The notes beneath the pieces are model-generated. The model did no database searches. It was given only the letters and a program-made list of their open reading frames with translations, and was not told the DNA's origin. A program made the position numbers and the translations under genes. Positions 2,808-53,519 of a DNA stretch of 64,000 nt are shown in pieces. The number at the start of each line of letters is the position of its first letter. Positions within the stretch are counted from its first letter, which is position 1. The stretch is from a virus: positions 1 to 64,000 of IMG/VR virus record IMGVR_UViG_3300015371_000016; one strand, 5' to 3'.

Positions 2808-5800
2808 CTAAAGCGGCCCAGTTGGCGTGAAGCTGTACCACTGACCACTGTCGTTGACATGCCAGATTACGGCGCCGATGCGCATTATCTGGAGCGCGTT
2901 GTGGCCGTTGGCGTAAGCGTTATTAACCATAACCGCATTGGGTTGTCCGCCACCTGACGGCACGATGGTCCACACGTTGTTCGAGGCATCCGTCACCGAT
3001 CCGCTGCTCAGCGTGCAATAGCGGATGATCGGACCCGCGCTGTAGTTCGAGGCGGTTTGTAGCTTGAACTCAGGAAAGTAGGAACCGTTGTTCAGTCCGC
3101 CGCCTGTGGTCGGTGGAGACGTGGCGATCGTAATCGAGCTTGTGGTCTGCGCCGGCGAGCTTAGATTTCCCGGCGCTCCCGGAACTAGCGGAACACCACC
3201 GCCCGTGCTGGTCAGTATCACCACCGTCTCAGATGGCACCGAGACCGATGTCAGGCTGGCTTGTGTGCCAATCTGCGGCGTCGGGTTCTGCGGTGCTCCC
3301 GGAGAATTCTTGCCGATCTCCCAGCGTGAAATCGTGCCGCTAAGCGTGGCACCGGAGACCGCAATATTAACCGTGCGCGATGTGGTCGTGTCGTAGTTCA
3401 CGAGCATGATCGCGAATGAGGTCTGGTTAGGCTTGACCGCGACGATCGCCATATTCGCTAGCGTCGTGCTGGATGTATATTCCGGTCCATACACCGACTG
3501 CCCAGCCTTGCCGAGCACGTAGCCATGCGCGCTGACTGAGGTATTGTTGCCCTTGATGGCACCGATGACGCCCATGGCGTTGATGTTCTCTAGCCCGCCC
3601 ATCTCCATGCCGGCAGCGCTTTTGAACAGGCCGATCAGATACGCTCCGGCATAGACGCCACCCATGTAATAGCCGGTTTCGTTGGCAAACTCGCTCATGT
3701 TCCAGTCGAGAACCGCGAACGGCGCATTCGCCAGCGGAGTGCCTGACAGCGCATTGCGCTGAGTAACTGAGTCTCCGCTATTGTAGCCCTTCGGCCCGTA
3801 AGCTGTAGTCAGGCTGTCCTGGATAGGCACACCAACCGGTCCGCTTTGCGGATTGACCGGAAAGGACATCCAGCAGATACCGACGTTCGGTGCGCGAGTA
3901 GAGCCTACGGCATTCGCGAAAGAGGTGTTCGCACCGACAGCCGGATGCCACTGAGCCGGACCCCAGATGCGATAGTTCGCGTTGACGCCTTTTAGGGCGT
4001 CGAAGATAGTATTGAAGTAACTATTAACCGTCGCCTGCGACGCACCCTCGCCATTACCGAGGCCGCCGTCGTCCATCCATAGCGTGCCGACGTTCCAATC
4101 CATGAACATCGAGCCGTAGCCGTTCGCATTCAGATAGTTCGCAAGAGCCACTGCCCGGCTGGCCCATTGATTGGCGGTGCCGCCACTGATGCTATGCGCC
4201 ACGCCCATTACGCCACGCACATCACCTTGACAGAACTGGCTGATGAATGGGACGAGATTGTTAAAATCCGTGAAATCGCCGGCCGCGACTTTTCGATCAA
4301 GCTCCCAGTCGGAATTTATGTTGATCATCGCCGGCTTGAGCTGCGCATTCGCGGTGCTGCGGAATGTCGCGTTCGAGAAATCCCCGCCGAAGATCGAACT
4401 ACGGAACCCGAATAGTGCCTTTTGCATCGTCTTGCCCGTGGGCGAGCCGAAGTTGACCGTGGCGTTATTATTCGTGCCGGTCGGGATGACGTTGTAGCTA
4501 TTCGAGGTCGCGCTTACGGTGGTCTGCGTCGAATCACGCACAGAGGTCGTCAGCGTCACGGTAGTGGTAGGCGCCGAGACCGCTGGATGTGTGAAAGACC
4601 ATGTCGTGAGGGTGACCGATGCGCCGGCAGGCAGCGCTACATAGTTTCCAGCGTTATCTCGCCATTGCAGCGTCGGGATCGTGGTGCGATTGCTGATCGT
4701 GCCGGAAACAGTGTAAGGCACCGCGTCGGTCTGCTGTCCGACATTATTGAACGTCAGTGCATATACACCGCCCGCCGCGACCGTCGTGACTTGCTGGATC
4801 GCACTGAGTGGACTGTTGCCCGTCGTGTTCGACACGTAGGCGGAGAAGTCATACTGAGTCCCGGCATTGAGACCGGTCGCGTTGATCCCAGGAGAGATCA
4901 GCGGCGAGGACGTTGCGACAGGTCCCACCCAAGAAACGGCGCCGTTGGCGATGGTTCCGGTGGTCGTGAAGCTATACCATTGCCCGCTATCGTTGACGTG
5001 CCACGCGACAGCACCTATCCGCAACACCATCGTCGCGTGATGGCCGTTGGCATAAACCCCGTTCACCAGAACGGCATTCGGCTGGCCGCCGCCGGTTGCA
5101 GCTATCGTCCATACATTGCCGAACGCGTCAGTCACCGAGCCAACCAGCGGTGTGCAATAGGCCGCCGCATCGACGCCGGTAGACGCCCAGGTCGTGGTGC
5201 CTGTCTGTCGCCGCTGTACCTGGATAGTGCCAGCGTCCAGCGTGCCGCCTGTCGTAGGAAGCGTGAGAGCCACCGGGACGCTTGTCGTGGTCGGCGTGCC
5301 GAGTGCGATCGATGGCGCGTCAGGGACCGTCGTGCCCGGCGTGCCGCCCGTGCTGCTGCCGACATTGACCAGCGAGCCGAACGCCGAGACGTAGGGAATA
5401 TACCACGCGGCGCACACACCCGTGGTACCGCTGGCAGGATTGGTGAAGCTCACCGTGATCGGCGCACCGTTCGACATCGGCAGCGTGTTGATCGAAATGC
5501 ACGTGAGCTGCTGACCGCCGCTGATCCGGGCGTCAGGGTGCGGCGTCCATGCCTGCCCAACAGGATCGGCGATAGCGATGTTGCTGGCGCCAGGATCGAA
5601 AGCATGCACCAGGATCACGCCAGAGGACTGCGGCGGGAATGGATAGACGCGGTAATAGTCGATGTCCGCGAAAGCGGGCAGGGTCGCTGGCACAGGCGTG
5701 CCGTCGCCGACGAGAGCCGCGCTGGAGGTCTGGAAATACGCGAAGGACGGACGGAGCTGAAAGTCACCACCGGGAGTGGCGATCGAACCGACCGGGCGGC

Positions 5801-9962: not shown

Positions 9963-11035
9963 CAGCCGGCACCCGTGGCGAATTGCGTGAGGCCGAGCGT
10001 CGTGTTCCACGCCATCGCGTCTGGTTGCCGATAATTTCCCCAGTGATGAATCCGCATGACTTGGAACTTGCCACCAGAGGCAATGCCAACGCTGTTTTTG
10101 TCCACCGGCGCGACTAGTCCGGGTAATGCGCCAGCTTGCGTCTGCACTGCTGCACCCTGCGGAAATTTCACGACACTAAGGACGTTAAGATCGCCACGCA
10201 TCACTAGCTTACACGTGAGCTGCGTCGGTGCGATCCATGTAACCTGCCCGATTAGATCACGAAAGGCGATTTCCTTCTCCACTGCTTCCGAACTGACTTC
10301 CTTCGCCTCGGCCACCAGTAGGTCTTGCCCGGCCACGTAAATATATACACCAGGATCGTCATCGCCGCGGCGCCTGCGCGTCATGGCCTGGACACTCTGC
10401 GCAAGCTGCACGAGCGTCGTGTAGAACCCTGGCATCCAGTCGGTATCGCTTACACGATCATCGCTGATGGTGATCTTACGCTTTAACTCGGACATTGGAC
10501 TGTTTTTGAATGTTTCTTCCAACGCCTCCGAGAGCTTCTGGCCCTTCTGCCAGTTCAGCACAAAGTTGCTCGGCTCGGCCGGCGAACCGACGCCACCAGG
10601 ACCGATCACCAAGTCCAGCGTCATATCAGTGCCGATCCAGTTACCGAAAGCTTGCTGTATCGATGCATCGATCACCAAGCCGCGCTGCGCGTCATTAGCG
10701 AGCGGCAGACCCTTCGTCATGCCGAGGCTGATCTTGAGCTTGTTCGCACCGTTCTTGCCTGGGTTCAAATCCTTTTTGAAGATGTCGGCGAGTGCTAAGC
10801 CGTAGATACGGACATACGAACTAGCGTCGCCCAGATGCATGGCCATCTGTTCGATGTCCAGCTCAATATTCAGTGCTGCCGGGTTGGTGGTGCCATCCGG
10901 GAACAGCGACGTGATAACCCCTACTTCTAGTGCCGCGCTGGGCGATAACGGTAGCGCTGAGGCCGAGCCCTTGAATGAAGCGAACTCGATCGGCGATCCG
11001 TCCGGTCGCTGGAATTCTAATCGGTAGTAGCGCAA
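9962..11035 (-). CDS. Baseplate hub protein
   Basis: 357 residues from a TTG start four bases after the stop of the small membrane-protein gene. The order plug, hub, spike, small protein, J-like wedge matches the canonical baseplate cluster of simple myophages. The protein is beta-rich with no enzymatic motif and ends FQVMRIHHWGNYRQPDAMAWNTTLG, a region like the end of gp44/gpD-type hub proteins. It should link tube and spike. Confidence 0.75.
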   Translation of the reverse strand: MRYYRLEFQRPDGSPIEFASFKGSASALPLSPSAALEVGVITSLFPDGTTNPAALNIELDIEQMAMHLGDASSYVRIYGLALADIFKKDLNPGKNGANKLKISLGMTKGLPLANDAQRGLVIDASIQQAFGNWIGTDMTLDLVIGPGGVGSPAEPSNFVLNWQKGQKLSEALEETFKNSPMSELKRKITISDDRVSDTDWMPGFYTTLVQLAQSVQAMTRRRRGDDDPGVYIYVAGQDLLVAEAKEVSSEAVEKEIAFRDLIGQVTWIAPTQLTCKLVMRGDLNVLSVVKFPQGAAVQTQAGALPGLVAPVDKNSVGIASGGKFQVMRIHHWGNYRQPDAMAWNTTLGLTQFATGAG

Positions 11036-28168: not shown

Positions 28169-28594
28169 CTACGTCGGCGGCTCCTTAAAATACGGGTGGA
28201 CTTGCATGATGTGCCCCTGCAAATCGATCCGCATGTCTTGCACTATGCGCGCCAGATTCGAAGTGCTGATGTCCATCGTCGCCAGTTTCTGATTGATCAG
28301 CGCTAGCGCCTCGCGGCCATTATCGCGCGCGCGTTCCATGTCTGACATTCGCTGCGCAAGATTCGTGAGCACCTCAGACTGCTGCGCGTTGGTCGCCATA
28401 CCGGCCGTAATCGCTTCGTTTGCCCGAATCGTCATCGCGCTCATCTGCGCTTCCATCCGGGTCATTCTTTCGGCGTCCCTATCGACGACGCCAGAGATGT
28501 GGCCAAAGCCGATCAACAAGCCGGCGGAAGTAAGCAGCGCCGTAAGGGCATACTTCGCCCACTCGGGAAGCCGTCGAATTGCTTCATCGACCAC
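28169..28594 (-). CDS. Membrane-anchored coiled-coil protein
   Basis: 141 residues: a short cytoplasmic start, one membrane helix (YALTALLTSAGLLIGFGHIS) and a long helical tail. The start is four bases from the stop of the protease gene. Could be a holin or spanin-like protein or a head-associated membrane protein. The 109 bases to the next gene hold no other gene. Confidence 0.55.
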   Translation of the reverse strand: MVDEAIRRLPEWAKYALTALLTSAGLLIGFGHISGVVDRDAERMTRMEAQMSAMTIRANEAITAGMATNAQQSEVLTNLAQRMSDMERARDNGREALALINQKLATMDISTSNLARIVQDMRIDLQGHIMQVHPYFKEPPT

Positions 28595-28598
28595 CGCA

Positions 28599-29945
28599 TC
28601 AGGCCAAGCGGTCGAGCATGTCGCTCAATGCGACGTAGATTGAGGAAAGGCGATCGATCTGATCCACCCGCACGTCAGGCAACAACTCGGCATTCGCCAT
28701 GATAGGTTCTCCCTTAGCGATGCCCGTCGGCTCGCCTGATTTATCCCACACACCCAAACTACAGATAGCGAGATGATCGAGCAGCGACGGCTTGCCCTCG
28801 ATGAGCAGCGTCTTTCCGCCCTCAAGCTTCCGACTTTCGTTTACCTCAGGATCACGGAACATCACGTCGGGACTGGTCGATAGCGGATAGTCCAGCATAA
28901 GCTGCGCCGCGCCTTGGTCATAGATACGCGCCACGGCCCACACTTCATCCTCGACAATATAGGGCAGCATCAGCGCGCCGATAATGCGATTCTCGAATTC
29001 TTGCTGGTTCAGCACGTCGTCAGGCGGATGCTGCCAGATAACAGGCAATCCGTTGCAGCGGGCTAAGAAGTCTGGATTGAGGTACAGACCAGGATCGCGC
29101 CAGACGTGTTCATTCAGCTCGGGCCGATAGCTCGCGCCTGTTCCTGTGACACGAAGCGCGAAGAGCCATAGGTTCTCATACTGCTGAGGCGACGACAGGC
29201 GGCCCTCGGCGATGGCGCGCGCGATGTCCAGCTCGTCCATCCGGACCCGCTCTAGGACCAACCTGACGCCCGGGTGCATAGGTTCCGGCGGCTGGTCCAT
29301 CGGCGCCCATTCGAAGTCCTCTAGCTCGTCGCTGAGCGTCGGTTCGAATGGTTCCGCGACCCGCGCCTGGAACGTGCTGTAATCGGTCCCAGTCAGGCGA
29401 TCCCGCATCAGCATCGACATCTTGCCGTGCGTTACTGCGCCAATTTCCTCGCCTACTTCTCGGAGGGCGGCGGTCTCGGCACTCTCTCCGGCCTCGATGA
29501 TGCCTCCTGGGAACTCCCAGGTGCCACGCTCTCTGTGCTTGACGAATAGCGCTTGATCTCCTCCGTCACTCTTGCAGAAGAACATGACGCCGGCCGCGCG
29601 ACTCTGAGGATCGCCTGTGACAGGCGCCAGCGTCGCCACTTGCTCATCGGCCCGACCCTCCCTTTCGAAGAGCTTGCACCAATCCTCTGCTTTAATAACT
29701 CCTTCGACTAATGCGCAGCCGTCCGGCTCGATGAAGTGCTTGCAGATACCACAATGGCTCTGCGGCATGCCCTCACCGTAGTCCACAGCCTCTTTGGTCT
29801 GCTTCTCCGCATCATGCCGCTCAGCGGCGAATTCAGATGCCTCGCGCTCGTGCTCTACCTGTGAGATCGACGGCGGGACGTCGCTGGGAACGAAGACCCA
29901 CGTGAAGCCCTGATTGACGCCTCCAGTTGGGACTTGGACATACAT
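28599..29945 (-). CDS. Fusion of Nudix hydrolase and DUF2213-like prohead protease
   Basis: 448 residues from ATG at 29945. About 65-90 carry four cysteines (HCGICK, GCALVEG, DWCKLF). About 120-245 is a Nudix domain with a full Nudix box at 147-171 (GGIIEAGESAET, then REVGEEIGAV). About 260-448 matches the DUF2213 prohead protease type (RVTGTGASYRPELNEHVWRD, NGLPVIWQHPP, SPDVMFRDPEVN, LDHLAICSLGVW). The protease half should mature the capsid. The Nudix half could hydrolyse a nucleotide or cap-like substrate; the reason for the fusion is unknown. Confidence 0.8.
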   Translation of the reverse strand: MYVQVPTGGVNQGFTWVFVPSDVPPSISQVEHEREASEFAAERHDAEKQTKEAVDYGEGMPQSHCGICKHFIEPDGCALVEGVIKAEDWCKLFEREGRADEQVATLAPVTGDPQSRAAGVMFFCKSDGGDQALFVKHRERGTWEFPGGIIEAGESAETAALREVGEEIGAVTHGKMSMLMRDRLTGTDYSTFQARVAEPFEPTLSDELEDFEWAPMDQPPEPMHPGVRLVLERVRMDELDIARAIAEGRLSSPQQYENLWLFALRVTGTGASYRPELNEHVWRDPGLYLNPDFLARCNGLPVIWQHPPDDVLNQQEFENRIIGALMLPYIVEDEVWAVARIYDQGAAQLMLDYPLSTSPDVMFRDPEVNESRKLEGGKTLLIEGKPSLLDHLAICSLGVWDKSGEPTGIAKGEPIMANAELLPDVRVDQIDRLSSIYVALSDMLDRLA

Positions 29946-31902: not shown

Positions 31903-32743
31903 GCACGACATCCCTAGACGATGGCCCATACATATACGGCAGAGGCCCTAGCATAATGTGTCCGGTCTGCGTCGCGTAGCGCACCGCCTGGATGTCGGGA
32001 TGCGCAGCGAGCCATTCATTGATCGCGCTGTTGACCGTGCAATAGGCGATTACGTCGTCCACCAGGATGTATTTCGCTCGGCCGAAGCAGAGCGCGATGT
32101 CCTTCAGCGCGCCTTCGTGGCTGTGATTGCCGTCAATGTGCGCGAGATCGTACGTCCGTGACAAATGCGTCAAAGTGCCGCTATCGCACCGTGCAAGCCT
32201 CAGCTCGTGCTCCGGATACTCCTCGTGCAGCATCCCGTTCGCGTAGGTGATGTCGCCGATATCGATGCCGTGGTAGATCGTGCCGGCAGCACATCCTCGC
32301 AGCATCGCCCAGGCTGAGTAGCCGGCACGGACGCCGATTTCAAAGATGCTCTTCGGTCGCAATGCAGAGCATAGCTCGGTGTAGAGGCTGTAACTCGGCG
32401 GGAAAAGTTCGGTGCGCTGATACTCGTCGAGAAAGAAGTCGCCTTGAGCGAAAATGCGTTGCGGTAGCGTGCCGTTGCCTTCCCACTCCACCCACGGCAC
32501 CGCATTGAGCGCGTCCTGCGGCCCGATCGTGCGGATGAATACTATCTGCCGTTCGTCGCTGTCCCAGATTTCCAGGTCCATGATCGGATCGCCGTCCGTG
32601 ATCAGCTCACGAACCTCGAATCCAACATTGGACTCTTTGTGCGGAATACGATCGGACGGGCAAAGATAGACCGTGCAATCCTTGCCATTGCCGAGGCGCT
32701 GTCCTTGTCGTGCGATCTCGGCGAGGATTTCAGCGTCGGTCAC
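31874..32743 (-). CDS. Class I SAM-dependent methyltransferase-like protein
   Basis: 289 residues from a GTG overlapping the MuF-like stop (GTGA). About 140-250 is a Rossmann-like methyltransferase: KSIFEIGVRAGYSAWAM is motif I, HGIDIGD follows, then YDLAHIDGNHSHEGALKDI. The pattern is that of the Methyltransf_24 type acting on small molecules or glycans. It sits in the head operon, where it may modify a virion or host component. Substrate unknown. Confidence 0.65.
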   Translation of the reverse strand: MTDAEILAEIARQGQRLGNGKDCTVYLCPSDRIPHKESNVGFEVRELITDGDPIMDLEIWDSDERQIVFIRTIGPQDALNAVPWVEWEGNGTLPQRIFAQGDFFLDEYQRTELFPPSYSLYTELCSALRPKSIFEIGVRAGYSAWAMLRGCAAGTIYHGIDIGDITYANGMLHEEYPEHELRLARCDSGTLTHLSRTYDLAHIDGNHSHEGALKDIALCFGRAKYILVDDVIAYCTVNSAINEWLAAHPDIQAVRYATQTGHIMLGPLPYMYGPSSRDVVHAAAQAERA

Positions 32744-34509
32744 GCAGGCAGTTTCTCCCGTGCGGTATCGAGCGCCTGCCTTCCACGTGCTGTCAACATG
32801 TCGTCGGGCAGATCGCGTAGGTGGTAGATGTAAACGTAATAGCAGCGGCAGTTGTGCGTTACGACTCCCTGGGCTACATACCAATTATTGATAGTTTGGA
32901 GATTGTAGACGTGCCCAGACCAAGGCCGGTTATTGATGTGGACCACATTGCTGCGCTTCGTAGCGAAGGGAAGGCTGTCTATGAAATTGCTGACGCCATT
33001 CACGTAAAGCCGACGACCCTCTGGGAGTGGCACAGGAATAGATGGATCGATCTCGGGCCAAAGTTGCCCCCTAGCCCGCGTATTTGTCTCGACCAACGCG
33101 CTATCCGCGCCGCCCATGACAGCGGTGAAAGTGTGCTCTCGATAGCCAATAGGTTTGGCGTATCGCGTTTGACGATCAAACGTCATATTCAGAAGGCCGG
33201 CGGACAACCTCGTACCCAGACTGAGGCAAATATCCTCATCGCTAGAAATAAGACGCCCGACCAACATAGTGCTGACGCCAAGGCTGCTCATCAAGCTAGA
33301 CGAGGCAAAAAGGCTTCGCGCACCGAATTGCTGCGTAGAGCAAGAAGTCAGTCCAAGATAATCGGGTACGGAGAGGCCGAACTTGTTACCGCTCTTACTG
33401 CTAAGAACCTGCGCCCCGACGTACAACGGCCTGTAGGTCCATACAATATCGATATCGCTATCGGTACCATCGCCGTGGAATTGCTGGCGCTGCCCACGCC
33501 GTGTCTCAGAGAACCCAAATTTCACGAGCGAGCTATATATTTGCTCAATGCTGGGTATTGCATCGTTATCGTCAGATTCCGTCCCGGCGACCTCTCCGGT
33601 AGCCTCGATGACGTGATCGCCATTATTCAAAGACTGAATAGGACGCCACCCGCACGGCGTAAGAATTGGATGATTTGGTGTCGCGCGGAGCGTTTTACCC
33701 GTGTCCGTAATCAGCTCGGTCAATTGACCGCTGTACCAGCGCCGATACGCTACTTCCACACCATCAGCGAATGGAAGCCTGGTATCTCCCGGTAAGCAGA
33801 ATATTTCTTCGCCCGGCTGAGTGATCTTGTCCGAGAAGCCCGCGTCTCCGGCCCGCATGAAGCCGCGTGTGTGCGCCCAGCTATTCCGGATCGCATACAC
33901 CTGCTGGTCGCGCTCCTTGTGGTCCTCGCGATAATCGTAGCCGGACTGGCGCCAGTGTGAGCGCCAGCGTGCGGCAATCGCTCCCGCGTCCTCTGCTAGG
34001 ATCGCCGAGACCGAAGCATTCAGCTTGTGACCCTGATCGATGATCACCCGTCGCTCGACGAACGGCAGCGAGGTCAGACCCTTGCGTATCTCCCGCTTCT
34101 GCTCTCTGCGGTCGAGCTGGTCGGTGCCGCCAATCGGGACACTGGTGGCCCAGCCCTGAAAGCGCCTCAGCGTGTCGTTGATCGCCTGCTCACGGTTCAG
34201 TTTGATCAGATCGGCTGACGCCTGGATGCGTCGGTTTAGTTCCGCCCGCAGCTTCGGCGCTATCCGCTGTACCGTAAAGCGATCTACACCTGGATGGCGG
34301 CGCAGCACCGTTCCTTCATCGATCAATCGCGTGTAGGTCGAGCCTAGCACCTTGCGCAGCTCTTCGGCCAATGAACGCTCTGACACCATGTCAGTAATGG
34401 CCGCCTCGCGGATCAGATCGATCCAATACTGCAAACGCTCTTCGGACTCATAGCCGTGCTCAGCGATATCGTTCAGCGCGTCAGTGACAACCTGGAAGAA
34501 CGTGGCCAT
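32740..34509 (-). CDS. Head morphogenesis protein (SPP1 gp7/MuF-like) interrupted by an intein
   Basis: 589 residues precursor. The N-extein (1-237) and C-extein (554-589, CRCYYVYIYHLRDLP) together form a minor head protein of the SPP1 gp7/MuF type, whose CRC motif is normally continuous. An intein occupies 238-553, so splicing should give a 273-residue mature protein. A TAGGA site precedes the ATG. The gene follows a repeat block, with portal and terminase further upstream, as expected for MuF. Function: head assembly at the portal. Confidence 0.85.
   Translation of the reverse strand: MATFFQVVTDALNDIAEHGYESEERLQYWIDLIREAAITDMVSERSLAEELRKVLGSTYTRLIDEGTVLRRHPGVDRFTVQRIAPKLRAELNRRIQASADLIKLNREQAINDTLRRFQGWATSVPIGGTDQLDRREQKREIRKGLTSLPFVERRVIIDQGHKLNASVSAILAEDAGAIAARWRSHWRQSGYDYREDHKERDQQVYAIRNSWAHTRGFMRAGDAGFSDKITQPGEEIFCLPGDTRLPFADGVEVAYRRWYSGQLTELITDTGKTLRATPNHPILTPCGWRPIQSLNNGDHVIEATGEVAGTESDDNDAIPSIEQIYSSLVKFGFSETRRGQRQQFHGDGTDSDIDIVWTYRPLYVGAQVLSSKSGNKFGLSVPDYLGLTSCSTQQFGARSLFASSSLMSSLGVSTMLVGRLISSDEDICLSLGTRLSAGLLNMTFDRQTRYAKPIGYREHTFTAVMGGADSALVETNTRARGQLWPEIDPSIPVPLPEGRRLYVNGVSNFIDSLPFATKRSNVVHINNRPWSGHVYNLQTINNWYVAQGVVTHNCRCYYVYIYHLRDLPDDMLTARGRQALDTAREKLPA
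32821..33795 (+). CDS. Vsr-like homing endonuclease ORF antisense to the intein
   Basis: 324 codons open on the plus strand, from 30 bases before the intein's 3' boundary to three bases inside its 5' boundary (the TAA is 33793-33795). The product has two helix-turn-helix-like segments (VYEIADAIHVKPTTLWEWHR; VLSIANRFGVSRLTIKRHIQ). A restriction-fold segment follows, with GPYNIDIAIGTIAVELL and AIYLLNAGYCIVIVRF, like Vsr/EDxHD-type homing endonucleases. No ribosome site was identified. If real, it is the mobility enzyme of the intein encoded on the opposite strand. Confidence 0.6.
   Translation: MVDVNVIAAAVVRYDSLGYIPIIDSLEIVDVPRPRPVIDVDHIAALRSEGKAVYEIADAIHVKPTTLWEWHRNRWIDLGPKLPPSPRICLDQRAIRAAHDSGESVLSIANRFGVSRLTIKRHIQKAGGQPRTQTEANILIARNKTPDQHSADAKAAHQARRGKKASRTELLRRARSQSKIIGYGEAELVTALTAKNLRPDVQRPVGPYNIDIAIGTIAVELLALPTPCLREPKFHERAIYLLNAGYCIVIVRFRPGDLSGSLDDVIAIIQRLNRTPPARRKNWMIWCRAERFTRVRNQLGQLTAVPAPIRYFHTISEWKPGISR
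32851..33798 (-). other. Intein in the MuF-like protein
   Basis: Residues 238-553 (316 aa). The N-terminal splice junction is C238 (CLPGDTRLPFADG). Block B is TPNHPILT at 277-284, with the usual Thr-x-x-His. The C-terminal end is WYVAQGVVTHN followed by Cys of the extein. No LAGLIDADG or HNH motif is visible in the sense reading. The middle (FHGDGTDSDIDIVW) resembles, from memory, inteins in other MuF-type proteins. Insertion is directly before the conserved CRC of the host protein. Confidence 0.85.
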
Positions 34510-34526: not shown

Positions 34527-34745
34527 GCGTTGCGTTGCGTTGCGTTGCGCAGCGGTGCGTGGCGGTGCGTGGCGCTGTGGAGAGGCGCGTTGCGGAGCGG
34601 AGCGATGCGGAGCGAAGTGGTGCGGTGCGGTGCGTTGCGTGGCGGTGCGCAGCGATGCAGCGCGGCGAGGTGCGGTGCGCGGCCGGGCGGAGCGTGGCGT
34701 GGCGTGGAGAAGCGCGGCGAGGCGTAGCGGTGCGTGGCGGCGCGA
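34527..34745. repeat. Degenerate 5-bp repeat block 1 (G[C/A]GNN)
   Basis: About 44 pentamers in one register: GCGTT GCGTT GCGTT GCGCA, then GCGGT GCGTG and so on, with G-C/A-G fixed and two variable bases. Lies between the MuF start and the upstream ORFan. All frames are open by composition but none looks like a gene. Confidence 0.85.
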
Positions 34746-34750
34746 AGACA

Positions 34751-35266
34751 TTACTTCCTGACATGAGAACGTCGTGGCGACAGACTGATCATCCATTCGA
34801 CTGCATTGAACGCGGGCAGATCGTTGGACGATCCGCGTGATACCTTCTCGATAGCTCGTACACCGCGCCTCGAAAGCGTCCATAGCGCCGCTTCGCGCAC
34901 GATCGAGTCCGTAGAAAACCGTGCCTGCTCGTCGAGATTTAAAGCGTCTAGCTCCACTACCTCTGCCTGCTTCCGGCCGGCGCCAAGTCGGTTATTGGCT
35001 CCCTTAAGATACCAAGAATGCTGTCGCTCGGCGATCTCTGGATCGGTCAGCCGACGCAGTCCGATCCTCGGACGGATGCAATCCCAAACTTGCAAATGTT
35101 CTCTCTCAAGTATGCGGCGCGCGGAAATCAGAAAGCCAGTAGAGGAAGTCACAGGTACGCCAGCTATCGACGATAGGTCTTCGTAAGTGAAGACTGATCC
35201 TTTCTCGTTCTGGGCCAGATATCGAACTAGGGCTGATGTAACCCCCGAACGCTCGAACTTGATCAC
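34751..35266 (-). CDS. HTH-like ORFan between repeat blocks
   Basis: 171 residues from GTG with AAGGA six bases upstream (a TTG two codons earlier is possible). The N-terminal part (LVRYLAQNEKGSVFTYEDLS, then SIAGVPVTSSTGFLISARRI) looks like a winged helix. The C-terminal WTLSRRGVRAIEKVSRG is basic. It is flanked on both sides by GMGNN repeat blocks, as if inserted as a unit. Function unknown, possibly DNA-binding. Confidence 0.6.
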   Translation of the reverse strand: MIKFERSGVTSALVRYLAQNEKGSVFTYEDLSSIAGVPVTSSTGFLISARRILEREHLQVWDCIRPRIGLRRLTDPEIAERQHSWYLKGANNRLGAGRKQAEVVELDALNLDEQARFSTDSIVREAALWTLSRRGVRAIEKVSRGSSNDLPAFNAVEWMISLSPRRSHVRK

Positions 35267-35280
35267 GATCAATCCTTATA

Positions 35281-35544
35281 TTGCGTTGCGTTGCGTGGCG
35301 GCGAGATGCGAGGCGTAGCGCGGCGTTGCGAGGAGGCGATCTGCGTTGCGTTGCGTTGAGGCGAGGTGCGAGGCGGTGCGGAGCGTCGCGTTGCGGTGCG
35401 CAGCGGCGAGCGGCGCTGAGGGGTGGCGCGTGGCGATGCGTAGCGTTGCGTGGCGACGAGCTGCGCGGCGGCGAGTTGCGAAGCGTAGCGTGGCGTCGAG
35501 CTGCGAAGCGGTGCGTCGCGAAGCGCTGCGGGGCGTGGCGCCGA
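35281..35544. repeat. Degenerate 5-bp repeat block 2 (G[C/A]GNN)
   Basis: About 53 consecutive pentamers keep the register without a slip; for example GCGTT GCGTT GCGTG GCGGC, then GAGAT GCGAG. It lies between two ORFans. GC-rich and lacking long inverted repeats. Confidence 0.85.
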
Positions 35545-35546
35545 TA

Positions 35547-36134
35547 TCAGACTTTTAACTCCTGCCACTCGAACTTGGTTACACGGAAGCGCCCATTGCT
35601 GCCGGCATTAGCGGGCCGTCCACGACCGAGGCCGACGATCATCCCGCCTGATCTGAGAGTATGCTCGAAGACCTCGGCAGTAATAATGTCATCGACAACC
35701 GTGAACTCAGCGACGCCGTGCCATTTATCGAATACCGGAAAGCGGCGCTTGACGCGCTTTCCTGATCCACGCACGCCGTCAGAATTGGCGTTGATCATAA
35801 CCATCTTGGCGTCGTCTGGCTTGAGCGGCTTGCCGTTCGCGATCGGCATATTCCCGTTGCAGATTACGCCGGAGGTAAAGAAGCTCTTATATGTCGCTCC
35901 GCGCCGGCCGGGCACCTTGTCGCCCAGCTTCTGCGCTGCGAGATCGATGCATTGCTTCAGTCCCATCTGTGGAACACAGACTTGCCCTTCCGCTGTCGTG
36001 GTGCACTTTTCCCGCCACGTCCGCGCGTCATAGTCATCGTGAGACTCGCGATCTAGCCACGGCGCTTCGTGCAGCGCGGATTGGCTATAGGGTGAGCCAG
36101 GAATCGATTCCAGATATGCTTTGCATGTCTTCAT
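35547..36134 (-). CDS. Conserved phage protein of unknown function
   Basis: 195 residues. KAYLESIPGSPYSQSALHEA, SHDDYDARTWREKCTTTAEG and GSGKRVKRRFPVFDKWHGVA match, from memory, a protein family seen in many phages, often close to recombination genes. The N-terminus is acidic/aromatic and the C-terminus basic (NGRFRVTKFEWQELKV). Here it is isolated between repeat blocks in the head operon, so it may be a cargo gene. No catalytic motif visible. Confidence 0.65.
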   Translation of the reverse strand: MKTCKAYLESIPGSPYSQSALHEAPWLDRESHDDYDARTWREKCTTTAEGQVCVPQMGLKQCIDLAAQKLGDKVPGRRGATYKSFFTSGVICNGNMPIANGKPLKPDDAKMVMINANSDGVRGSGKRVKRRFPVFDKWHGVAEFTVVDDIITAEVFEHTLRSGGMIVGLGRGRPANAGSNGRFRVTKFEWQELKV

Positions 36135-36174
36135 CCTAGATTATTCCTTGTTGCGTGCGTTTTTGTGACGGGAT

Positions 36175-36290
36175 GCGGTGCGGTGCGACCGAGTCGCGGT
36201 GCGGTGCGTTGCGTCGCGTTGCGATGCGAGGCGTCGAGGTGCGGAGCGATGCGTGGCGTTGCGGTGCGACGAGATGCGATGCGACGCGTC
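36175..36290. repeat. Degenerate 5-bp repeat block 3 (G[C/A]GNN)
   Basis: About 23 pentamers (GCGGT GCGGT GCGAC ... GCGAT GCGAC GCGTC) with one single-base register slip near 36190. It lies upstream of the 35547-36134 gene. Confidence 0.8.
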
Positions 36291-36313
36291 GATATCCCTC
36301 AGAGACCGGCCCG

Positions 36314-36424
36314 TCACGGCTGGTGCACGTTCCAGCGGCGCCCATAGCGCCACCGATCCCAAAGGAATTGGTAATATCTATCGTGCTCTCCAGGCACCGT
36401 GACGGCGGCGCTTTCGCCGGGCAT
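36314..36424 (-). CDS. Possible 36-residue peptide between repeat blocks
   Basis: ATG at 36424 opens MPGESAAVTVPGEHDRYYQF and ends WRYGRRWNVHQP, rather protein-like for a random frame. No clear ribosome site. It could be a small cargo gene or the remnant of a larger gene. Otherwise 36291-36469 holds no recognisable feature. Confidence 0.3.
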   Translation of the reverse strand: MPGESAAVTVPGEHDRYYQFLWDRWRYGRRWNVHQP

Positions 36425-36469
36425 GAAGGCACAACTTTATATGCGGGTCAAGCGGTTCCTTCTGTTATG

Positions 36470-36534
36470 GCGAAGCGTTGCGTTGCGTTGCGTGGAGTCG
36501 CGCGGTGATGCGTCGCGTGGCGGCGTAGTGACGC
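36470..36534. repeat. Degenerate 5-bp repeat block 4 (G[C/A]GNN)
   Basis: About 13 pentamers (GCGAA GCGTT GCGTT GCGTT GCGTG ...), ending 12 bases from the stop of the portal gene. Shortest of the four blocks. Confidence 0.75.
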
Positions 36535-36546
36535 ACCCTAGCAGAT

Positions 36547-38037
36547 TTATCTCGAACTAGCCAATTTGAAGCTAGGTGGCTTAAGCCCAGCCGCCATTCC
36601 GTTGGCGCCCTGGCCGCCCTGGTCCATAAGCAAGCTCTTCTGTTGCGCATCCTGCATATCCTGCGCATGCGCGGCAAGGGCCTCGGTATCCAGAGAAAGC
36701 GTGCCCTGGAAGATCAGCTCAGCTTTATTGACCTCGCTTTGCAGCCACTCGGTCAGCCGAGCCTTATTCTCGGGATCTAAGCTGCCATCGTTCAGTAGCT
36801 GGTAAAGCGCCAGCGCCGCCTTCATCTTTGTATCCTCAACCTTCACCTTCTCGCTGTCGGGCTCTTGGATCAGCGAAGGCCACTCGGCCGTGAAGTTATT
36901 CTGCCATGTCTGCAACGCTGAGGCGTAGCGGACGTTGCCATATTCCTGCGGATACTCCTGCTGGATGCCTCGATAGAATTCTTCGTTCCAGGCACGGTGT
37001 TGGACGATGTTGGTCAGCCACTCATAGACCGGGTCCATGCTCTCGCGGAAGCCGTCCACAAAGCGAGCAATCACCTTGGCATCCTCGGTGCCCTCGCCGA
37101 AGCCCTCGACCATCGTTTCGTTCTCTAGCAGGATCGCCGGCAGAGCCGCACCGGTCGCTAGATTCTTGAGAATATTATTCCTCGCGAATGTGCCGGCGCC
37201 GTCGATATTCGTTAGATTGAGCGAAGAGATATCTTCGTCCACGCCGATCGACAACACGTTGTCCGTGCGGCCCTCTTGCAGCATCGATCGCTTGCGAGCG
37301 AATATGTTGATCATCCCTCTATTAGCGATACCACCGGGTGCCTGCATCTTTGCGATCAGCAGTCCCGCTTTCCGGGCGATCATGTCGTCGGTGATCATGC
37401 AGTGCAGGTAGCTCTTGAGCGGATAAAGCACCCGCTGAAAAACCGATCTTCCCGTGAATCCGAACGCGCTGCCGGTATACGATATATACAGCGGCTCCTC
37501 GTTCATCACCACACACGTGCGGCTGGGATGGTAGGTCTCACCCTGCGTCGTTACCTGCATCGCCTTTTGGAACAGTGGCGAATTCGGGTCCTGGTCGAGC
37601 ATTAGGCTGCCGGCGGTATTCAGCGGATCGAGCACGTTCAGGAATATGCTGTCCGTCGCTAGAGTCCCTACTTCCAACGGTGCCGTCGCTGGCTTGCCCT
37701 CGATGCCTAGCACCACCGAAGAAAGGCCGTAGATGCGCGACTGCTTGATGACGTTCGCGATGACCTTGTCGGCCTTCATCGCACGCCACTGTTTCTGGAA
37801 TGCCTCGGCTACTCGCTCGGGCGCGCCTGAGACGGTGATCTCTCGGTCCTGGCTCTGTGCGAGCTGGATCGGCGCTTCGACCATCTTGGCGCCGATCGGA
37901 TGATACAGATAGATCAGCTTGCAGAGCTGGTAGCTCACGTCGCTGCCGGGCAGGATATCGTCAGCGGTCAGTATCTGCATCAGCGCCGGCCCGACATTGG
38001 AGCCGACGACCGAGATCGATGCTCCGCTACCGCTCAT
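36547..38037 (-). CDS. Portal protein (DUF1073-like)
   Basis: 496 residues from the ATG after the terminase stop (TGACATG) with AAGGGG upstream; an in-frame start 21 bases earlier is possible. Segments such as ADDILPGSDVSYQLCKLIYL, GLSSVVLGIEGKPATAPLEV, LIAKMQAPGGIANRG and FVDGFRESMDPVYEWLTNIV fit DUF1073-type portals. Forms the DNA-entry ring and connects to terminase, MuF-like protein and connectors. Confidence 0.85.
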   Translation of the reverse strand: MSGSGASISVVGSNVGPALMQILTADDILPGSDVSYQLCKLIYLYHPIGAKMVEAPIQLAQSQDREITVSGAPERVAEAFQKQWRAMKADKVIANVIKQSRIYGLSSVVLGIEGKPATAPLEVGTLATDSIFLNVLDPLNTAGSLMLDQDPNSPLFQKAMQVTTQGETYHPSRTCVVMNEEPLYISYTGSAFGFTGRSVFQRVLYPLKSYLHCMITDDMIARKAGLLIAKMQAPGGIANRGMINIFARKRSMLQEGRTDNVLSIGVDEDISSLNLTNIDGAGTFARNNILKNLATGAALPAILLENETMVEGFGEGTEDAKVIARFVDGFRESMDPVYEWLTNIVQHRAWNEEFYRGIQQEYPQEYGNVRYASALQTWQNNFTAEWPSLIQEPDSEKVKVEDTKMKAALALYQLLNDGSLDPENKARLTEWLQSEVNKAELIFQGTLSLDTEALAAHAQDMQDAQQKSLLMDQGGQGANGMAAGLKPPSFKLASSR

Positions 38038-38038
38038 G

Positions 38039-39376
38039 TCAGAACCCCTTAGCGTCACCCAGCGCGCAGGCTATGCCGTAGCAAAAAGCGTCGAGCAGAT
38101 CGTCTTCGCGATTGTCGATCCCTACTCTGTAACCGACCACTTGGCCGAGAAGATGGTTCCGGCTGGTCTCATTATATATGAGTGTGCGATCATAGGCCGG
38201 GCCGGATATCTTGACCTCGCCACGGTGCACGTAGCCGCTCACTGAGACCGCCCTGGCGTCCTTCCCTAGTGCCACAAGCTGGCTGTCGATCGGATCGGCC
38301 GGCAGACCTCGGCGCCTTGCTTGCTGGAGCAGGATCGTGCCTGAGCCCTTGTCCTCGATGTAAGCGCCCGTCGCACCGAAGCGCGCGTGGCACTGTCTCG
38401 CCAGCTCTTCCATGCGCTGGTAGACACCCGGCAGCCAGACTTCGAGCAGCGAGCCTTCCACCTTAATAATATCGTAGTCCAGGATTATCAGCGGCGTGCC
38501 GACATGCTGGCTGCGAGCCCAGTAGATCACCGCTGTGCCGTCGTGCTGGCTTCTGTCCTTCAGCGCGGTATCGATCGTGCAGAAGACCAGATCACAGAAG
38601 GACGGGTAATCGACCGGCCTGTCGTTATCGAGCAGCGCAGGCAGCGGAAAGAACGCTGCTCCGCTAAAGTCCACGAACTCAGCGAGGTACTCTTGCTGAT
38701 AGACCAGCGGATGCGTCTCCGCCTCGATCTGCCGAAGCTCCTCTCTGGGCATGTAGGGATTAGCGCTGGTAGGCGCGTGATACTCGACGAAGCCCATGTC
38801 CGCGTTATTGCAGAGCTGCCAAAGGAAATTGTCTGGATCGATCCCGTTGGTGTTCGACAGCGCGATACAAGAACCGCGATAGTCCACTAGGGTCGGCCGT
38901 ATCGCCTTCCGCCAAATGTCCCTCATGTTCGACTTGGCGAAGGCCGCTTCGTCGATGACGACCTGATGGTAGCGTCGTGACCGGCCCGCCCGCTCATTCT
39001 CTAGCGACCAGAAATCTATGCGGCCGCCCGCATTGGTCCTGATCAGTCCGTCGTTCCTCGATGCCCTGGTGACACAGGGAGCCAACATTGTCGCCAGCTC
39101 AGAATATGCCTCGGCGATGAACTTATACTCCGGCGCGAACCATCCGACGAATTTACCGCGCAAGGCTGCGTCGGCCGCTATCGTCTGTCCTAATAGGGTC
39201 TTGCCCCACCGCCTGCCGCATCGGACGACCTTGAACCTCCCTGGCATTTGGAAGGCACGAATCTGATCTTCGTGAAGGACGGGCAAATATACTTCCCGAG
39301 TGGAACCGTCCGAGCTGCTGCCGCCTCTGTTGTATGGTAGCTCAACTCGGAAGACTTGCTCCGTTTCCTCGGTCAT
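38039..39376 (-). CDS. Terminase large subunit
   Basis: 445 residues from the ATG at 39376. Walker A CGRRWGKTLL at about 53-62, Walker B QVVIDEA in the middle of the ATPase half, coupling-type SNTNG, then a nuclease half starting near VFCTIDTALKD with further acidic residues at the end (NREDDLLDAF). Packages DNA into proheads. A longer start at 39454 would overlap the small subunit more and has no better ribosome site. Confidence 0.9.
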   Translation of the reverse strand: MTEETEQVFRVELPYNRGGSSSDGSTREVYLPVLHEDQIRAFQMPGRFKVVRCGRRWGKTLLGQTIAADAALRGKFVGWFAPEYKFIAEAYSELATMLAPCVTRASRNDGLIRTNAGGRIDFWSLENERAGRSRRYHQVVIDEAAFAKSNMRDIWRKAIRPTLVDYRGSCIALSNTNGIDPDNFLWQLCNNADMGFVEYHAPTSANPYMPREELRQIEAETHPLVYQQEYLAEFVDFSGAAFFPLPALLDNDRPVDYPSFCDLVFCTIDTALKDRSQHDGTAVIYWARSQHVGTPLIILDYDIIKVEGSLLEVWLPGVYQRMEELARQCHARFGATGAYIEDKGSGTILLQQARRRGLPADPIDSQLVALGKDARAVSVSGYVHRGEVKISGPAYDRTLIYNETSRNHLLGQVVGYRVGIDNREDDLLDAFCYGIACALGDAKGF

Positions 39377-52728: not shown

Positions 52729-53519
52729 AGCGCGACCCTCTGTCCCACATCCGCGAATAAATCGTGGCCGTTCGGCTTTCGTGGCAGCCGCTCGCTGGCC
52801 GTGATCAGCCAGATCCTAAATCGGGAATCCCAACGAATGCATTTTGCTCCCTTGGCCTCCGCCCAGCTTCGCATTTTATCCACTTCGAGATTGAAGCCGC
52901 GTTCGTCGAAGCCGAGCGATTTGGCCAGGGCGATGTGCTTGACAGTGGGAACCCAATCGTCAGGCAATTCCGTCTCGCGTGCGCGTGCGCGTGCGCGCGC
53001 GGAGTCCGAACGAAGTGAGGACTCTCTCTCTTGGGAGTCCTTGGGGGATTCTTTCTTAGGGGGATTCTCTGCAAAGTTTGCAGGTTCGAATTGCAGTGTT
53101 TTGCAGGTAAAGTTTGCAGAATTTGCAGGTTCAGACGAGGTTGCTGTCTGCAAATCTTGCATATCATGCTGCGAATCTTGCACCTTTGCTGCCTGCAAAT
53201 CTTGCATATCACGCTGCAAATCTTGCACCGTTTGATCTGCGGATTTTTCAGTCTTGGGAGGGTCTGCCGGTCGCAGAATGTGGTAGTGGTGCACCTGTCG
53301 CTTACGCGCTTCGATACGAATTAGTTTGGCTTCGGCTAGTCTGTGTACCGCACTATGGACAGTTCGCTGGCACAATTCCGTCTCGACGGAAATGGTCGAT
53401 ATAGACGGCCAACAGATCATAGAGCCGTTCGCCTTGTCGGCGAGGTAAATCAGGACGACGCGCTCTGAGGCTGAAAGGCCACGTTGACGCAATGCCCAAA
53501 CGACGTGAGGACAGCTCAT
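52725..53519 (-). CDS. O-like replication initiator with internal iterons
   Basis: 264 residues. About 1-80 is a winged-helix HTH (RQRGLSASERVVLIYLADKA, WPSISTISVETELCQRTVHS). The middle carries Gln/Asp-rich repeats (VQDLQRDMQDLQ, VQDSQHDMQDLQ) encoded by the iterons at 53070-53227. An Arg/Ala run (ARARARARE) and a C-terminal domain (WDSRFRIWLITASERLP) follow. Gene order initiator then helicase, and repeats inside the gene, recall lambda O with its origin. Confidence 0.75.
   Translation of the reverse strand: MSCPHVVWALRQRGLSASERVVLIYLADKANGSMICWPSISTISVETELCQRTVHSAVHRLAEAKLIRIEARKRQVHHYHILRPADPPKTEKSADQTVQDLQRDMQDLQAAKVQDSQHDMQDLQTATSSEPANSANFTCKTLQFEPANFAENPPKKESPKDSQERESSLRSDSARARARARETELPDDWVPTVKHIALAKSLGFDERGFNLEVDKMRSWAEAKGAKCIRWDSRFRIWLITASERLPRKPNGHDLFADVGQRVAL
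53070..53227. repeat. Iteron-like repeats, candidate replication origin
   Basis: TGCAAATCTTGCA at 53149, 53194 and 53215, with variant TGCGAATCTTGCA at 53170, and the palindrome TGCAAAGTTTGCA at 53070. Start-to-start distances are 21, 24 and 21 bases, about two helical turns. They lie inside the O-like gene. Confidence 0.65.

Follow-up and report, generated by a model that had tools for sequence, protein, structure and literature searches.

The question posed by this locus is why two small genes, lying between the portal and MuF-like head genes of a virus, should be set off from each other and from both neighbors by long tracts of a degenerate five-base-pair repeat. The tracts lie within positions 1 to 64,000 of IMG/VR virus record IMGVR_UViG_3300015371_000016 (that whole 64,000-nucleotide stretch is referred to here as ‘the window’), and the initial annotation suggested that they might serve as a recombination target for gene insertion, act as an array of protein sites, or be a product of polymerase slippage. 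The analysis described below indicates that the region is, very probably, a VIPR (Viral Interference Programmable Repeat) locus, composed of a vipr gene, a vap-like gene and four vrRNA arrays; the repeats are explained by the two presumed ‘cargo’ genes, which encode a RAMP-type Vipr and a vap-like protein. As described in the main text of PMC13142463 (2026), a VIPR comprises phage vipr and vap genes, a RAMP protein and vrRNAs of 9-16 YNNGG repeats, in which the NN dinucleotides pair with double-stranded DNA with a 1-nt skip (at codon position 3 in the case of SUSP1), and represses competing phages and satellites. Seven VIPR types, with GGY/NN ‘or a related consensus’, are described in that text, where VIPR is presented as a split-code, RNA-guided system, possibly predating CRISPR.

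The in-register character of the blocks, as originally claimed, is real. Four blocks of 44, 52, 20 and 11 units, of the form G[C/A/T]G-NN on the plus strand, gave run scores of 35.2, 47.6, 20 and 8.8, respectively, whereas 300 dinucleotide-preserving shuffles of each block scored 6 or less; the best pentamer run elsewhere in the window or on its other strand scored 3, and exact 6-unit runs were absent elsewhere in the 77,127-bp virus record. The longest block, which had been given as about 53 units at 35281-35544, does hold its register, but extends over 52 units at 35283-35542. Likewise, only the NN positions are free, as had been stated, although the triplet has C, and sometimes A or T, in its middle: in a tally of 5,200 units drawn from all related loci, G occupies phase 1 in 97% and phase 3 in 96%, phase 2 is C in 88%, A in 6% and T in 5%, and phases 4-5 are mixed. 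The blocks are not uniform, in that several open at their left end (plus strand) with perfect GCGTT units, and three such units recur at 35343-35357, inside array 2, where they may represent the boundary between two vrRNAs. A short out-of-register stretch at approximately 36172-36190 precedes array 3 on the plus strand.

The genes of the region lie on the minus strand, so that a transcript would read CGC-NN; on that strand the triplet is CGC (88%), with CTC and CAC also found, and none of these corresponds to GGY. In the mRNA sense, the order of elements is portal, 11-unit array, 20-unit array, vipr, 52-unit array, vap-like gene, 44-unit array and MuF (Table 1), such that arrays occupy every gap of the cassette and border both extra genes, as the initial annotation had noted. 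Perfect CGCAA makes up 66% of the last units over all arrays, that is, at the end adjoining the next gene in the mRNA sense, and we infer that perfect CGCAA units mark vrRNA boundaries within long tracts. The median array length is 14 units over all relatives (approximately 300 distinct arrays were collected), versus 44 and 52 for the longest arrays of the window, and internal CGCAA runs suggest concatenation within those long tracts. No recognisable 3' tail or ribozyme was found in the spacers between the window arrays, where hammerhead and other known RNAs gave no Rfam match. The CGC-NN pattern is free of stop codons in all three sense frames, and ORF finders run through the blocks; a coding origin was rejected, the NN positions showing no conservation. 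The view that the blocks are neither dedicated coding sequence nor an ordinary microsatellite stands.

Table 1. Elements of the cassette and the head genes at its borders, in window coordinates.
Feature	Position	Strand	Description	Basis
vrRNA array 1 (putative)	34527-34746	-	44 units, CGC-NN on gene strand, between vap and MuF	
vrRNA array 2 (putative)	35283-35542	-	52 units, between vipr and vap	
vrRNA array 3 (putative)	36191-36290	-	20 units, upstream of vipr	
vrRNA array 4 (putative)	36470-36524	-	11 units, between portal and array 3	
vipr gene	35547-36134	-	RAMP-type VIPR-family protein, 195 aa	phrog_4652, profile match, AlphaFold2 model
vap-like accessory gene	34751-35272	-	Winged-helix-like, 173 aa by longest ORF	Family, model, hhalign
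Portal gene	36547-38058	-	Cassette border, outside VIPR	phrog_146; 48% identical to QDWS portal
MuF-like head gene	32740-34509	-	Other cassette border, outside VIPR	phrog_15127, phrog_324

The identity of the gene between arrays 2 and 3 was established by profile and structural comparisons. The profile of the window Vipr family matches one PDB chain, 36pp (‘SUSP1 Vipr protein’, E 2.2e-11), which is encoded at 28474-29061 of the SUSP1 record, and an hhalign comparison of the family with SUSP1 Vipr returned a probability of 97; the window protein taken alone, as a single sequence, fails to reach SUSP1 Vipr. All 40 relatives aligned with the window Vipr fall within phrog_4652, as do SUSP1 Vipr and the proteins of LESphi2 and DSL-LC04. 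The AlphaFold2 model of the protein (pLDDT 95.7) finds its best PDB matches in the CRISPR RAMPs Cas7 (type VII) and Csm3 (E 2e-7, TM ~0.5), and the RAMP homologue of ~20 kDa by which a VIPR is recognised is thus represented by this gene product. When GGY and CGC labels were mapped onto a tree of 52 Viprs, two changes were needed, versus 10.2 in shuffles; two long-branch rows (the second ORF of L028, and L077) are poorly placed. The CGC Viprs in this tree had been reached by way of their arrays, and the GGY ones through resemblance to known Viprs, a sampling by which intermediate types may be missed. The fixed triplet would appear to follow the Vipr lineage, with the CGC Viprs forming a separate lineage in that tree. 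A phrog_4652 scan of 385 genomes from the class of the L138 genome returned five with a Vipr (L431-L434 and L436); four of these loci have GGC/NN-like arrays, although the best phase of one of the four gives GCC, and a second protein with a GTC-like array is present in one genome.

The second gene, whose likelier start is a GTG at approximately 35266 with AAGGA upstream, belongs to a family of 63 array-adjacent proteins, and its model is winged-helix-like, with weak fold matches. Similarity to SUSP1 vap1 is weak (hhalign probability 59, E 9e-5), and phrog_5926, the vap1 family, is matched by 3 of 45 members of the vap-like family; in adjoining vipr in the same order and in its winged-helix-like character, the gene corresponds to the vap of a VIPR, at that weak level of vap1 similarity.

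The cassette appears to have been inserted between two of the window phage's head genes. Shewanella phage QDWS, which has related head genes, carries portal next to MuF with no cassette; the records or stretches with the closest cassettes (some of the records being fragments) have no similarity to the window portal, terminase or MuF. The MuF-like gene itself contains a putative intein, beginning CLPGDT and ending VVTHNC, with an Intein_splicing score of 35.1 bits, just below the cut-off of 35.8. Elsewhere in the window (53141-53234), a separate 45-bp tandem repeat of 2.1 copies, which contains CTGCAAATCTTGCATATCA and adjoins an HTH gene, could be an iteron-like site.

Tandem intergenic pentanucleotide arrays with a fixed triplet and hypervariable NN are also characteristic of VIPRs, and were found here. 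NN runs in common do not exceed 3 units between the window and five phages with a Vipr 67-80% identical to its own, nor 5 units among those phages themselves, while the triplet is kept; on the evidence of sequence comparison, this pattern is one of guide-like turnover. The approximately 300 arrays were decoded, at skips of 0-4, against some 3.4 Mb of DNA, most of it from related phages, the counts leaving out window-array matches to loci fetched with those arrays' own patterns. A skip of 1 alone gave unbiased matches of at least 10 units outside homologous arrays (L047 to L030, and L079 to L057), and no run of that length came from skips of 0, 2 and 4, or from eight sets of guides in which the NN order had been shuffled. 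Skip-3 matches between relatives were set aside as homologous arrays rather than targets, and a 9-unit match from L048 to L016 as being at noise level.

In the first of these cases, the L047 array matches the L030 helicase gene over 11 units in a row, and at 13 of 14 dinucleotides, with the skipped base falling at codon position 3. The guide sits inside L047's own helicase-like gene, to which the L030 target gene is 88% identical, and L047's own copy is mismatched, agreeing at 9 of 20 compared units versus 14 of 20 in L030. This CGC-NN array, in frame and stop-free within the coding sequence, lies at 2223-2301 of L047 (IMGVR_UViG_3300046517_002064), the L030 gene being at 3041-4549 on the minus strand; when decoded, the L047 copy leads to a site in the L030 gene that lies just upstream of the corresponding array-like stretch there. 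In the second case, the L079 array matches L057 over 10 units in a row, with the guide present twice in tandem in one array. The L079 record (L248, reverse strand 10225-10422) has a 40-unit array with two tandem 13-unit guide blocks, both of which match one site in the L057 record. Because there are one clear and one probable decoded case, respectively, the 1-nt-skip rule for CGC arrays may be considered supported, and not proved. For the window arrays themselves, five IMG/VR pattern scans gave no convincing target. The best candidate, a recT gene in IMGVR_UViG_3300005340_000027 (9 units in a row, or 12 of 14 counting terminal TT units, the skipped base here being at codon position 1, and the phage showing no detected similarity over the stretch compared), is not claimed, the scan having returned 13 stretches.

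The search for the motif in other genomes and metagenomes that had been recommended located arrays both in IMG/VR and in bacterial GTDB contigs. The exact pattern GCGTTGCG(NNGCG)x6 occurs in 95 stretches of IMG/VR, and the same gene pair, accompanied by such arrays in the same strand arrangement, is found in approximately 100 uncultured phage contigs and some bacterial contigs; because the same kind of array recurs in about 100 independent contigs, an assembly artefact, against which the initial annotation had cautioned, is excluded. A scan of GTDB genomes returned mostly pure GCGTT-type microsatellites, together with true variable-NN arrays in contigs of Roseomonas, Rhodospirillales, Ancalomicrobiaceae, Nitrospirota, Phycisphaeraceae and Acidobacteriota; such arrays were also found in Paracoccus litorisediminis NBRC 112902 (L189). 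The GCGTT-type pentamer microsatellites with little NN variation, seen in Neisseria, Capnocytophaga and Pasteurellaceae (L110, L112, L123, L132, L186 and others), are possibly phase-variation tracts. Several arrays in series are common in phages, the spacer between them being conserved in any one phage and often appearing able to form a hairpin. The inter-array spacers of L012 (approximately 2001-2043, 2671-2715 and 3426-3470, minus strand) have the look of mini-ORFs with conserved copies, being laid out as AAGGAT, ATG, six codons (for example, ACT TTT GCG ACA GGC CCA) and TGA.

The blocks belong with the two extra genes, as was first supposed. When array-adjacent proteins were clustered, the two large families (64 and 63 members) were those of the two window genes, and every other cluster had at most 5 members; some of the small clusters look, on reading their sequences, like exonuclease, RecT, SNF2-like helicase and HNH proteins. 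Searches with tblastn identified 101 places of the vipr family and 81 of the vap family, at 90 and 79 of which, respectively, nearby arrays occur only as CGC on the gene strand (169 of the 171 places with arrays); the remainder comprise two mixed places, eleven without arrays nearby, and none with only the opposite orientation. Those loci had been found through the array, and a separate search was therefore made by protein alone, in which all five close relatives had gene-strand arrays flanking vipr, including one absent from the pattern set. Among named isolate phages, none of the CGC type was found, and two distant protein hits carry GGY/NN.

A VIPR locus in which the functional RNA is instead antisense (GCG-NN), and is produced from promoters opposing the genes, may also be considered: the arrays read equally well on both strands, target decoding is blind to strand, and a double-stranded target spelled by NN would be unchanged. 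That arrangement is nonetheless judged improbable, as GGY/NN lies on the strand of the genes in published and checked VIPRs, one substitution separates CGC from GGY and two separate GCG from it, the strand relation of arrays to genes is nearly fixed, and no promoter-like signal rises above chance; sense transcription is what we infer for the CGC clade. A different precedent is provided by the Bacillus trp leader, in which the protein TRAP wraps (G/U)AG-NN repeats, its sites consisting of a triplet plus 2-nt spacing in RNA. The arrays described here share that spacing and end just before Shine-Dalgarno sites, as though they were regulatory sites in mRNA leaders, wrapped in a TRAP-like manner to control translation of the flanking genes without guiding. 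The NN positions would then be free spacer, yet there is evidence that they carry information, in a guide-like match in a relative; moreover, many arrays lie in series or within a gene rather than before one, and their partner is a RAMP homologous to Vipr, with no TRAP-like protein. A TRAP-like identity was dropped after the Vipr match, and is considered very unlikely.

The chance that the repeat acts purely as DNA, either as a recombination hot spot for cassette insertion or as a product of polymerase slippage, is slimmer still. The cassette does appear to move, because it is found in phages with unrelated head genes, and one array contains two copies of a 13-unit block; against this, the arrays maintain a strict strand relation to the genes, and provide no long homology because close relatives share no NN series. 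Slippage yields identical units, as in the pure GCGTT microsatellites of other bacteria (Pasteurellaceae, Capnocytophaga and others), which look different from the arrays seen here, and a microsatellite identity was rejected. Neither of these earlier proposals thus finds support: the NN positions would serve as a guide carried in RNA, for which the adjoining gene supplies a partner of the RAMP type. For the same reasons, the suggestion of an array of protein sites would be correct at the level of RNA and not of DNA; a site built on half helical turns of DNA is likewise unsupported, the period of five being that of the pentanucleotide unit of vrRNAs.

The VIPR reading of the locus is best appreciated by comparison with SUSP1 (PMC13142463; PDB 36pp; KT454805.2, 27600-29250), with which it shares: (i) vipr followed by vap, in the same order and on the same strand; (ii) gene-strand pentamer arrays around those genes (GGY/NN in SUSP1) with a fixed triplet and hypervariable NN; (iii) Vipr/RAMP homology; and (iv) reading with a 1-nt skip, supported here in a relative. 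It differs from SUSP1, as described in the published main text, in its triplet (CGC versus GGY), and also in having arrays between vipr and vap, no recognised invariant structured 3' tail in the window, and a Vipr of an apparently separate lineage; its spacer-less tracts reach 52 units, versus 9-16 units in that same main text. Pseudomonas phage LESphi2 and phage DSL-LC04 likewise encode a phrog_4652 protein and have upstream arrays on the strand of its gene, but with GGC/GGT triplets, arrays grouped upstream of vipr, and vipr and vap directly adjacent. The predicted fold of the window Vipr resembles the RAMPs of Class 1 CRISPR systems (Cas7 of type VII, and Csm3); unlike those, it is a small single-domain protein with a non-contiguous guide, and the locus lacks genes for adaptation as well as any other cas genes. 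Between portal and MuF there are pentamer arrays, vipr and vap and nothing else, the repeat-spacer array and several cas genes that identify Class 1 CRISPR-Cas being absent.

The transcription and function of the window locus, to judge from homology, would proceed as follows. The arrays would be transcribed with the genes as an RNA of CGC-NN pentamers, and then cut into vrRNAs, along which Vipr monomers would line up, gripping the CGC triplets and displaying the NN pairs. These pairs, taken in succession, would base-pair with double-stranded DNA with one target base skipped per unit (NNx NNx ...), and the bound complex would keep genes of competing phages or prophages from being transcribed, probably with the assistance of the winged-helix Vap.

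It is tentatively proposed, as a possibility still open to considerable doubt, that CGC/NN represents an undescribed VIPR type, with a separate Vipr lineage reading a CGC scaffold, long concatenated tracts, and guides also inside genes, where they can sit because CGC-NN contains no stop codon in any gene-strand frame. If so, triplet recognition would co-evolve with the Vipr protein. The locus and its approximately 100 related contigs would widen the range of VIPR to take in many phages that are uncultured, along with some bacteria (Alphaproteobacteria, Nitrospirota and Planctomycetota), and the CGC loci, with a different fixed triplet that appears to follow the Vipr lineage, add some independent support from natural sequences for the 1-nt-skip rule. 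VIPR arrays would thereby allow the targeting relations among phages to be read, and would account for conserved non-coding repeats of a kind left blank by annotation.
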